This document shows positions 36,591-39,349 of a DNA stretch of 39,492 nucleotides, piece after piece. Source of the stretch: Syntrophaceae bacterium (GTDB taxonomy: Bacteria; Desulfobacterota; Syntrophia; Syntrophales; UBA2185); assembly GCA_003142635.1 (NCBI GenBank), contig PLMX01000233.1:17392-56883 (forward strand), read 5' to 3'. The notes beneath the pieces are model-generated. The model was not told the DNA's origin. It did not search any database and saw nothing but the letters and a program-made list of their open reading frames with translations. A program made the position numbers and the translations under genes. Each line of letters begins with the position of its first letter. Position 1 is the first letter of the stretch.

Positions 36591-36677
36591 GCCGAAGTGG
36601 CGGAACTGGTAGACGCGCTAGGTTCAGGGTCTAGTGGGGGGTTCTCCGTCCCGGTTCAAATCCGGGCTTCGGCACCA
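36591..36677 (+). tRNA. tRNA-Leu (CAG anticodon)
   Basis: GCCGAAG (36591-36597) pairs with CTTCGGC (36667-36673) as the acceptor stem, followed by ACCA with the CCA encoded. The anticodon arm CTAGG-TTCAGGG-TCTAG gives a CAG anticodon, which reads CUG leucine codons. The long variable arm (around GTGGGGGGTTCTCCGTC) is the class II mark of leucine and serine tRNAs. The T arm is CCCGG-TTCAAAT-CCGGG. Its last 22 bases also form the end of the integrase gene. Confidence 0.95.
36656..36677. mobile_element. Minimum left attachment core of the integrated element
   Basis: The integrase stop lies in the T loop and the last residues (GAEARI) are encoded by tRNA sequence. An element inserted at this tRNA 3' end should carry this segment as the crossover core so that both the tRNA and the integrase stay intact. 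The second copy is not in the window, so only the minimum extent of the core can be given. Confidence 0.55.
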
Positions 36678-37924
36678 AAGATAGAAGAAGGAAATGAGGG
36701 GGTTAGCTGATTCATCGGTTGACCCTCTTTTTCGTTTGGGGGTACTTGGTCAACGTTTTGGTCAACATTTGCGAACAAGCCCTGCATATAGAGCGAAAAC
36801 TTGTCCATCGCCTGTCGAAGATCGTCCTCGTCAATCGCATTGTATCGGTCAAACATCGAAGTTTGAGCGTGTCCTGTTATCGCCATAATCACGGACTGAG
36901 CAACACCCGCTTTTCTCATGTAGGTAGTGAATGAGTGTCTCAGATCGTGGAAGACAAAACCGTTCTTTGTTTTCCTACCATAGGGAATTCCTGCATCACG
37001 ACAAGCCGTCTTCAAAGCTGTCCGAATATCCTTAATCGGTTTTCCGGTATACAGGAATAAATGATCGTCATGGACGGCAACCGGGATGTCTTTCAGTATA
37101 GAGTACAGTTCATCACAAATAGGAACTTTGCGTGGTTCACTGTCCTTGGTGTCGGCTGCATCAAGCTTAATCATCCTCTTTTTAAAATCGACTTTCGGAC
37201 GGATGGTATCAACAATTTCACCTTCTCGCATACCAGTGTAGAAACCAGTGGCAACCATACCCTTTGTAGGCATACGTGATGCTGCTAAGAGCTTCTTGAT
37301 TTCAACCGGGCTTAAAATCCTGTCCCGCGCATTAGCATTTCGCTTGAGTAATTTTTTGACCTTCCTGAAAACCTTAACAGTGTCACCGCTTACCAGATCA
37401 TCGTCAAACGCTTTATTGATAACCGCTCGTGCTGCTCCGATTTCCTGATCAATGTATGAATCAGAATAACCTGCCGCTTTTCTCTTTGCCTGATAATTCT
37501 GTAAGGCAGATGTCTTTATATCCCTGACCATGGTTTCTCCAAATTCTTTGTTAAAACTGGAAAGATTAATCGTCAAGGTTTCGTAGTACGCTTTGGATTT
37601 GACTATTTCCAAGTCAAGATACCATTTACTAAGTTCATTGAAGGGCATCTTTGCATCAGGCTTGATATCAAATATCCTATTCTCCCGTTTCTGACTTCTC
37701 CGTTTGCCTTCAGCGTCCCTTGCTTCCTCAATGGAAAAGCCCACAGCCTCACGCCTTTGTTTCCCGCCCGGTAGTCTGTAGCTAATCCAGTAAGTGACTC
37801 TTAATTTAGCGTCTGGGTTTGTATTATTCTTTTTAATCTTGTCCAGCTTAGCCCCACAATGACATACTTTATTACTTACTTTTTGTTTTCTGTGGCATAT
37901 GGGACATTCTGCTAAAATCGCCAT
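36656..37924 (-). CDS. Tyrosine recombinase / integrase of the tRNA-Leu element
   Basis: Site-specific integrase of 422 residues. An N-terminal zinc-ribbon-like motif (CPIC at 7-10, CHC at 21-23) precedes the arm-binding region and a core-binding SAM-like domain (about 95-190). The catalytic residues are Arg233 in GFYTGMREGEI, Lys260 in DTKDSEPRK, His326 and Arg329 in FHDLRHSF, His352 in TGHAQT and the nucleophile Tyr361 in DRYNAID. AAAGGAGG stands before the ATG, and the start shares one base with the stop of a 39-codon ORF. The gene reads toward the tRNA and ends inside it, as expected for an element integrated at a tRNA 3' end. Confidence 0.93.
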   Translation of the reverse strand: MAILAECPICHRKQKVSNKVCHCGAKLDKIKKNNTNPDAKLRVTYWISYRLPGGKQRREAVGFSIEEARDAEGKRRSQKRENRIFDIKPDAKMPFNELSKWYLDLEIVKSKAYYETLTINLSSFNKEFGETMVRDIKTSALQNYQAKRKAAGYSDSYIDQEIGAARAVINKAFDDDLVSGDTVKVFRKVKKLLKRNANARDRILSPVEIKKLLAASRMPTKGMVATGFYTGMREGEIVDTIRPKVDFKKRMIKLDAADTKDSEPRKVPICDELYSILKDIPVAVHDDHLFLYTGKPIKDIRTALKTACRDAGIPYGRKTKNGFVFHDLRHSFTTYMRKAGVAQSVIMAITGHAQTSMFDRYNAIDEDDLRQAMDKFSLYMQGLFANVDQNVDQVPPNEKEGQPMNQLTPSFPSSIFGAEARI

Positions 37925-38043
37925 TATGCTTTCCTCCTTTCATAAATAATTAAACCTGAAGACTTCTCCCGGTCATAGACATAACCGCCCCATGCGTCAC
38001 CGCATAGGGTATCTTCAGGCTTATATGTTTGTTTAGTTTTCAT
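37924..38043 (-). CDS. Possible 39-residue protein coupled to the integrase start
   Basis: A 39-codon frame begins with ATG at 38043 and ends TAA at 37926-37924, sharing the A with the integrase ATG (TAATG). The peptide has a DTLCGDAWGGYVYDREKSSG middle and a basic end (YERRKA). One-base stop/start overlap strongly suggests translational coupling. No good ribosome site precedes it. The same bases hold nested inverted repeats, so part of its signal could be structural rather than coding. I recognise no family. Confidence 0.4.
   Translation of the reverse strand: MKTKQTYKPEDTLCGDAWGGYVYDREKSSGLIIYERRKA
37955..38019 (-). promoter_or_regulatory. Nested inverted repeats in the integrase leader
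   Basis: CCTGAAGA (37955-37962) is matched by TCTTCAGG (38012-38019). Between them CCCATGCG (37989-37996) pairs with CGCAT-A-GGG (38001-38009) around a TCAC loop, with one bulge. Such a structure could regulate integrase translation or act as an arm site for recombination. Confidence 0.45.
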
Positions 38044-38064
38044 GTGTCTATGTATCGAAGAACT

Positions 38065-38078
38065 TGGTTATATAACCA
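38065..38078. promoter_or_regulatory. Perfect palindrome TGGTTATATAACCA, operator candidate
   Basis: A 14-base perfect palindrome lies between the leftward integrase unit and the rightward ribbon-helix-helix gene. A smaller inverted repeat (ATACC-GGT-GGTAT, about 38124-38136) lies just before the latter gene. Both have the size of sites bound by small dimeric regulators. Confidence 0.45.
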
Positions 38079-38149: not shown

Positions 38150-38311
38150 ATGGCAACCGATAAACCAAAGCTCCTTTTTGTCATACCTGAAGACCTATTG
38201 AAACGCATTGATGATTTCCGGTATGAAAACCGTATCCCCGCCCGCTCTGAGGCTGTCCGTCAGCTGATCGAAGCAGGTCTTAAGAAACAAGAGAAGAAAC
38301 CGAAGAAATAG
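38150..38311 (+). CDS. Small ribbon-helix-helix (CopG/Arc-type) protein
   Basis: A 53-residue protein matching the ribbon-helix-helix pattern. LLFVIPEDLLKRIDDF gives the DNA-contacting strand and first helix; the second helix is IPARSEAVRQLIEAGLK, with the RSEAVRxLI signature. A lysine-rich tail (KKQEKKPKK) ends it. Such proteins bind DNA as dimers and serve as antitoxins, plasmid-type regulators or excision factors. The ribosome site is weak. It stands between the integrase and the SIR2-like gene and could regulate either; 36 bases separate it from the latter. Confidence 0.82.
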   Translation: MATDKPKLLFVIPEDLLKRIDDFRYENRIPARSEAVRQLIEAGLKKQEKKPKK

Positions 38312-38347: not shown

Positions 38348-39349
38348 ATGGTCAAGATCACGTATCTGTTAGGTGCGGGCGCGAGTTGTAATTCTCTGCC
38401 CATGGTCGAAGATTTTCCCGAAAGAATAGATAAACTTAATGACGAACTTTGGTATAGGATGCAAGGAGAATATGGTGCTAAAAATATTTCAACTGACGAT
38501 ATTTTATGGCCTCGCGGTAAATATGCTCAGGCCCTTATGAATCAGATAAAATGGCTCGGTAAGGAATCAACTCGACATGCCTCAATTGATACATATGCTA
38601 AGAAGCTTTTCATCAGAAATGATAAAGAAGCAATAGATCTCTTGCATCTTTTAAAAGCAACTCTCTCTTGCTATATATTGATTGAGCAATCACTCAGAGA
38701 AGCTGACAAGAGATACGATAGTTTTTTTGCATCGCTCCTTAGAAATGAGCCTGGGCAATTACCGTCTTTGCCAAAGGAAGTTAACATAGTTACTTGGAAT
38801 TACGACACTCAACTTGAGAAGTCGTATAGAGAATTCTGTCAAGATCCATCTTTTGTATATGAAGGCATCACAAGAAAACGGAATATCATTCGATTGAATG
38901 GTGCATGTGGAGTGCCATTCGATGAATCGAAACAGGAAAAGAATTTATGTTATGAACATTTCAGCCTATCTTTTTTAGAGTCAGTATTAAAGCTATATGA
39001 TAATTTATTGAGGAAGGCAGAGGGATACCGCCCGTACATTTCTTTCGCATGGGAGAGAAGAGAACCGGATACCAGAATCCTTGAAACTATCAAAGGCACG
39101 ACGACTCTCGTGATTATTGGATATTCATTGCCTTACTTTAATCGCGATATAGATAAGATTATTTTTGAAACTATGGCTCCAAGTTTAGAGAAAATCTTTA
39201 TCCAGGCTCCCGCTGCCGATCATCCGGCATTGGAAGAACGCTTTCTGACTTGTTTTGCAGATCAATCTGTGAAGCAAACAATAAGCAGCGCTATTGAAAT
39301 GATCGAAGGTACAGACCTGTTCTATATTCCAGATAATATGCCGAGGTGA
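38348..39349 (+). CDS. SIR2-like protein, probable defence effector
   Basis: Protein of 333 residues with a SIR2-like NAD-binding domain. YLLGAGASC (residues 6-14) is the glycine-rich nucleotide loop; HASIDTYAKKL (about 77-87) is a segment common in SIR2-like defence proteins. VTWNYDTQLE (148-157) corresponds to the TxNxD motif, RLNGACG (182-188) to the region with the catalytic histidine, and LVIIGYSLPYFNRDID (254-269) to the last NAD strand. The histidine of classical deacylases is not obvious (RLNG in place of HLHG). Such domains deplete NAD in phage defence systems. GGAAGG is seven bases before the ATG. It is cargo of the tRNA-Leu element; defence function is inferred. Confidence 0.82.
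   Translation: MVKITYLLGAGASCNSLPMVEDFPERIDKLNDELWYRMQGEYGAKNISTDDILWPRGKYAQALMNQIKWLGKESTRHASIDTYAKKLFIRNDKEAIDLLHLLKATLSCYILIEQSLREADKRYDSFFASLLRNEPGQLPSLPKEVNIVTWNYDTQLEKSYREFCQDPSFVYEGITRKRNIIRLNGACGVPFDESKQEKNLCYEHFSLSFLESVLKLYDNLLRKAEGYRPYISFAWERREPDTRILETIKGTTTLVIIGYSLPYFNRDIDKIIFETMAPSLEKIFIQAPAADHPALEERFLTCFADQSVKQTISSAIEMIEGTDLFYIPDNMPR

Follow-up and report, generated by a model that had tools for sequence, protein, structure and literature searches.

A conserved folded RNA, built of a stem (P1) that encloses two hairpins (P2 and P3), lies directly upstream of a tyrosine integrase gene in a 39,492-nucleotide stretch of DNA from a Syntrophaceae bacterium (hereafter the window), and its folding is well supported by the comparison of related sequences. 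We favor, with somewhat better than even confidence, the reading that it is a C4-like leader RNA, acting in cis and possibly also in trans, that governs expression of an integrative element's integrase operon. Judging from the sequences, the RNA probably decides whether the integrase of the mobile element is made.

The integrase gene (422 aa; 36656..37924, (-) strand; Pfam Phage_integrase, 73 bits) terminates within a tRNA-Leu(CAG) gene (36591..36677, (+) strand), which is probably the insertion site of the element. Pieces of the 3' part of this tRNA recur in the same genome, one of them near an integrase fragment (L205, 98% over 66 bp) and the second at L206 (96% over 53 bp); no tRNA was found at either locus, and both pieces are likely attachment-site scars. 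On the other side, a gene for a 53-aa ribbon-helix-helix (RHH, CopG-like) protein (38150..38311, (+) strand; Pfam RHH_1, 16.2 bits with a cut-off of 20.5) diverges from the RNA, and a 14-bp perfect palindrome within the divergent promoter region (TGGTTATATAACCA, 38065..38078) is a possible operator. The RHH gene adjoins the gene of a 333-aa protein (38348-39349, (+) strand) that weakly resembles SIR2-like proteins (20.8 bits against a cut-off of 24.5), possibly a defence gene. The region upstream of the leader RNA resembles that upstream of a dnaJ-like gene of the same genome (L038, about 1501-1536; E 0.009), a match that we read as shared promoter-like sequence. Comparison of the leader and RHH DNA of the window with phages gave no match.

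Read along the (-) strand, the leader starts with a short 5' strand, the target (CATAGACA, 38045..38052), and the AUG of a 39-codon ORF (37924..38043) is located 1 nt 3' of it. An initial annotation of the window had described this ORF as running from 38043 to 37924 and sharing one base (TAATG) with the integrase ATG at 37924, and this was confirmed, the stop codon overlapping the integrase AUG. The nested inverted repeats that it had placed under the ORF are likewise present in the sequence, and their folding as RNA was computed. P1 (5' strand 38011..38020, 3' strand 37954..37963) encloses P2, a 9-bp hairpin (37988..38009) with a GUGA loop of the GNRA kind (37997-38000), and the second hairpin P3 (37970..37987); a T-rich tail (37943..37953) with an interrupted run and then the AGGAGG Shine-Dalgarno-like site of the integrase (37933..37938) follow, all on the (-) strand. 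A hammerhead-like core was also considered and was dropped because its CUGAAGA stretch is paired in P1.

The computed fold of 211 nt has an energy of -59.9 kcal/mol (z -4.15) that none of 200 shuffles equalled. When 3942 stretches of 85 nt were sampled from both strands of the window at a step of 20, with no composition correction, nine folded at least as stably as the core, and the most stable of all overlaps the leader locus. Base changes on both sides were already present in 9 of 25 pairs in an unfitted comparison of three copies (the window, L056 and L058). Structure conservation, proposed as a check in the initial annotation, was borne out by compensatory changes at 25/25 pairs across 81 aligned copies (80 distinct). 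In this alignment (A5; 81 matches at E up to 1e-4 from 77 sources, two rows being identical), whose fitting to a covariance model favors pair counts, 95.7% of cells are paired, dropping to 39-46% in slid controls, and double-changed cells number 547 versus 121.9 after shuffling. The P2 loop is GNRA in 81/81 copies and the joining bases after P3 are similar in many of them. The 9 nt past P1 hold 6.6 T on average (six in the window), versus 2.1 in the purine-rich 9 nt starting 20 bases on. In a 38-copy alignment, with five atypical copies excluded, G-U cells outnumber A-C cells by 113 to 11, indicating that the functional molecule is most likely an RNA of the integrase strand.

The loop region of P3 is complementary to the target strand upstream. 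In the window, CATAGACA pairs with TGTCTATG at 8/8 bases, bases 37974-37981 forming the P3 side, and a loop-target score of p 0.05 or better (200 shuffles) was obtained for 34/38 copies. Across the 81-copy set, the mean pairing score was 17.0 for the loop with its own upstream sequence, 11.2 with the upstream sequences of other copies and 10.6 with shuffled ones, and in 61/81 copies the own upstream sequence beat at least 90% of the others. Because the pairing letters vary widely among copies (CATAGG, CATGAG, CATAGACA, CTGTAGA and CATGATC, among others), we regard this as true covariation of loop and target. No clear match of the P3 loop to the downstream start region was seen in the 81-copy set (mean 11.7). 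C4-type regulation calls for a loop able to pair with a target where a small coupled ORF begins, and such complementarity is present here.

Copies were sought with two covariance models, R1 from the window, L056 and L058 (all of type I, see below) and R2 from 38 copies. With a cut-off of E 0.1, R1 matched 31 of the order's 155 genomes, three weak matches (G151, G143 and G058; E 0.06-0.09) being left out of its list; with a cut-off of E 0.001 it also matched 8/395 genomes sampled across the phylum, four of which lie beyond the order. R2 matched 43/155 of the order's genomes with a cut-off of E 0.01; 16 of its order matches at E 4e-4 to 0.009, of which 15 are 42-53 bases long, were set aside, and the weakest are probably plain terminators. 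At E up to 0.001, R2 also matched 24/192 genomes in the class of G224 and 3/63 in the class of G427, and one further match at E 5.5e-4, from a separate search, was set aside as well. From one named match to the integrase, NaphS2, a delta-proteobacterium, we infer that the genomes bearing copies are Desulfobacterota. The weak L132 and L133 and a reverse-strand match on L100 are absent from alignments A4 and A5. Viral contigs gave no match to four degenerate patterns, and an integrase scan of them found one distant relative. Some loci hold two copies, namely L126 (4013-4092 and 4570-4650), L183 (2514-2597 and 5342-5425) and L201, where the copies (1027-1110, (-) strand, and 2227-2310, (+) strand) are identical and inverted.

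The copies were split by the distance from target to P1 into type I (14-37 nt) and type II (38 nt or more), a division in which some assignments may be wrong: the two copies of L201 are counted as type II yet look like type I, while L187, L190 and L200, placed in type I, lack an RHH-like gene and resemble a third variety. Type I, to which the window belongs, comprises 58/81 copies with the target 16-35 nt before P1, and type II comprises 21/81 with the target 39-56 nt before it, leaving 2/81 unplaced. A run of at least five T between target and P1 occurs in 14/21 type II copies versus 4/58 of type I. By a home-made profile seeded from these same loci, a divergent RHH-like gene accompanies 50/58 type I copies, 2/21 type II copies and 0/2 unplaced ones; among five of the RHH-like proteins examined in Pfam, those of L107 and L100 pass the RHH threshold, that of the window stays below it, and those of L130 and L137 show no RHH family. 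In type II copies such as L165, L167 and L191, a Shine-Dalgarno-like stretch comes immediately after the target, with an ATG next.

Kinship with known RNAs was found mainly through c4-2 (RF02944), which belongs to the clan of phage P1 C4 (CL00128) and which Rfam types as an sRNA. The window copy matches no Rfam family, and its 191 scanned bases contained no c4-2 match even with a cut-off of E 10. A scan of 12 other type I loci with a cut-off of E 1 was likewise negative for c4-2, while type I L180 reached 33.9 bits, under the threshold of 41 (E 8e-6 for 191 bases). When 12 of 20 type II loci were scanned, five scored above the c4-2 threshold, three below it and four gave no match at E up to 1. 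Conversely, R1 recovers 7/14 type II loci tested; it finds L165 and L191 (E below 1e-3) of the five loci that pass c4-2 and misses L194, L195 and L196. By these scores, intermediates link type I to c4-2, but the window copy itself cannot be filed as c4-2. Compared by eye, the two share an overall shape: P1 surrounds two hairpins, one closed by a four-base loop and the other by a large one, and the end is U-rich. Type I departs from c4-2 in that most copies have no T-run separating target and P1, the target leads straight into an AUG, and an RHH-like gene diverges from the RNA.

The C4 RNA of phages P1 and P7 (RF01695; targets a1/b1, RF03163) likewise forms part of an operon's 5' leader and has putative targets upstream. 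In the phage P1 record, putative targets are annotated both ahead of c4 (a1 and b1) and ahead of icd (a2 and b2). According to one study, loop b' of C4 partly covers the ribosome site and the RNA is cut by RNase P (PMC5320573), and two others have icd and ant blocked by C4 RNA (PMC8198154, PMC8201110). C4 differs in heading icd-ant, whereas an integrase or small unknown genes follow here, where one pairing loop is seen and the target is upstream only. Rfam models found C4 and c4-a1b1 in the phage P1 region, with an isrK-like piece below threshold between them; R2, run on the immI region of phage P1, had no match at c4 (best elsewhere, 9.1 bits), which RF01695 scores at 68.8. The stretch before stem P1 in type II copies, T-run included, resembles the b1-to-c4 stretch of phage P1. 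A leader RNA and a small ORF coupled onward are also shared with IsrK-orf45-anrP of Gifsy-1, of which the P4 SeqA/CI RNA is a cited homologue, and orf45, coupled to anrP, is conserved at the nucleotide level but not in its protein sequence (PMC4825925). In Gifsy-1, by contrast, the small RNA activates translation in trans and the operon as described has no integrase (PMC4825925); the window gave no match to Rfam isrK. The int-alpA RNA (RF02996), associated with integrases by its Rfam name, is a different family, and one such RNA was observed at L088 (2909-2979, (+) strand; 37.2 bits, above threshold). A thin search of open-licence papers found, among the titles and abstract openings listed, no integrase leader RNA of this kind in print, and the integrase-, antisense- and phage-related text of PMC11109978 describes none.

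The C4-like reading suggests the following mechanism. Transcription would begin in the region common to the divergent RHH gene, where the promoter is presumed to lie, and the RHH protein would repress the divergent promoters. The transcript would carry, in order, the target strand, the leader AUG, the P1-P2-P3 RNA, the U-rich tail and the integrase Shine-Dalgarno site. The P3 loop would compete with the ribosome for the leader start, loop-target pairing covering the start of the leader ORF. Without leader translation, P1 would close ahead of the U-rich tail and lead to termination, keeping transcription and coupled translation low. If a ribosome reaches the leader AUG first, it would pass through P1-P2-P3, melt the helices and stop at the integrase start, and integrase would be made. 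Action in trans, as in C4, would be the most interesting point of the scheme.

An extension of trans action, which we regard as possible yet well short of even odds, is immunity or copy control: the processed leader RNA would silence the integrase start of incoming relatives, loop-target pairs would define immunity groups, and HTH genes and the RNA would be exchanged modules before one integrase lineage. Close relatives of the integrase were sought in 60 related genomes, the 155 genomes of the order and named genome contigs. Thirteen relatives with 47-65% identity (tblastn) were obtained: L002, L003, L004, L031, L033, L034 (an N-terminal piece), L045, L046, L047, L048, L049, L050 and L053. R1 found no match at E up to 10 in the stretches upstream of these 13. 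In the place of the RNA, seven of them (L002, L003, L004, L034, L045, L046 and L047) have a small HTH-like frame, which overlaps the start of the integrase in L003, L004 and L047, extends up to it in L002 and stops a little short of it in L034, L045 and L046; the one checked, in L004, belongs to Pfam HTH_3 (36.3 bits). The initial annotation had held that related integrases with neither frame nor structure would count against a leader role. All 13 relatives literally answer this description, yet the leader reading stands because the RNA accompanies the divergent RHH-like gene and precedes many other integrases. Their lack of both peptide and RNA indicates that the structure is independent of this integrase lineage.

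We also weighed the simpler explanation of an ordinary attenuator, in which P1 and the U-rich tail are an elaborate intrinsic terminator, leader translation alone decides read-through, and the loop-target helix is a stabilising pseudoknot. Across copies P1 is indeed followed on average by a T-rich tail, while simple terminator and promoter scans of the window found nothing at the tail region, the terminator scan taking loops of 3-8 only. The leader frames were analysed in 54 type I copies, the four of 58 with a weak loop-target helix being excluded. In 36/54 the target strand has an AUG no more than 10 nt away, versus an average of 4.7 and a maximum of 11 with shuffled linkers; with slight overlap of the target strand allowed, 41/54 have a leader AUG, and in 13/54 there is none at the expected place. 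Of the 41 frames, 34 stay open to the end of P1, versus 23.0 expected from random registers (P 4e-5), and 7 hit a stop before it; with copies at least 80% identical removed, 30/35 are open versus 19.3 expected (P 1.5e-5), both P values being optimistic because the copies are related. One register has TGA in the P1 5' strand in 33/54 copies. The AUG registers are used 23, 14 and 4 times, the last being the TGA register, where 2/4 close early. Stops are found 9-38 nt beyond P1, roughly at the start of the next gene, in 21/34 open frames, and in L119, L106, L110 and L130 the leader frame enters the next gene, meeting no stop for over 200 nt after P1.

Frames open through P1 beyond expectation are in keeping with an attenuator and also, together with the AUG beside the target, with the C4-like reading; no shared codon run of the kind expected of regulatory codons in a leader-peptide attenuator is found in them. 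However, the loop-target helix covaries strongly, the target is located where the leader begins, as it is in C4 systems, and some type II copies fit c4-2 RNA, an sRNA; we therefore consider a plain attenuator doubtful, although it keeps a modest share of our confidence.

A compact three-way junction with similar joining bases after P3 and an invariant GNRA loop is also what might be expected of a riboswitch, which would control the operon through a small ligand. The genes downstream argue otherwise. Within about 2.8 kb, a tyrosine integrase follows 29/58 type I copies (four being pieces of less than 200 aa), 6/21 type II copies and 1/2 unplaced ones, and a serine recombinase follows 2/58 type I copies. 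In the window, L104, L109, L134 and L136, among others, the integrase is the first gene after the RNA. The remaining 29/58 type I copies have no tyrosine integrase in 2.8 kb, merely 4 of these 29 having less than 2 kb of downstream sequence, and the copies at L056 and L058 adjoin a divergent RHH-like gene like that of the window but precede other genes. Integrase control would thus be part of the story, as half of the type I copies head other genes, often small and of unknown function. Integrases and assorted small unknown genes show no apparent common metabolic theme, and what is kept of the variable P3 loop is its pairing, making a riboswitch very unlikely.

We then considered that the 39-aa product is itself active, for instance as a regulator or a protein of the excisionase kind. 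In favor are the open frame and the small HTH frames that occupy the same place before seven related integrases. Against this, homologous copies that use different main registers encode unrelated peptides, and compensatory changes in P2 alter the peptide freely, with no common codon run seen. A search for the same peptide upstream of related integrases, proposed as a check in the initial annotation, found it in 0/13 close relatives (tblastn). The peptide belongs to no Pfam family; tblastn against the first 36 fetched loci gave a best E of 0.49 apart from itself and against later loci itself alone at E up to 1e-3, while the best E against phages was 8 and plasmids gave no match at E up to 1. 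An order-wide search gave one clear outside match, L056 (E 4e-7), plus a weak one, L058; both resemble the window in nucleotides and not in peptide and have the same three helices, and a conserved peptide was rejected, its single clear match being to RNA. A functional peptide is accordingly highly improbable. Since frames stay open in differing registers, it appears to be openness through the RNA, and not the product, that is under selection. No Shine-Dalgarno-like stretch was seen at the leader AUG of the window, and TAATG coupling, weak evidence when taken alone, is raised above chance because the structure is conserved elsewhere. The suggestion that the leader gates integrase translation remains the best reading, now resting on a retained RNA fold with varying registers and unrelated peptides in place of a conserved peptide.

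Least credible is a DNA-level element, either a cruciform or the recombination-arm structure of the initial annotation: although the RNA adjoins integrases in mobile elements, the G-U excess points to a one-strand RNA, the T-rich tail and Shine-Dalgarno-like stretch are found on one side only, and the tRNA end, the would-be attachment core, is about 1.3 kb away.

C4-type RNAs are known from phage immunity regions. If the C4-like reading is true, a relative of theirs located before integrases, linked with an RHH-like gene and with a leader frame that is conserved in its openness and not in its product, would extend RNA control to the decision of mobile elements to integrate, in a bacterial group that is represented here mostly by draft genomes.
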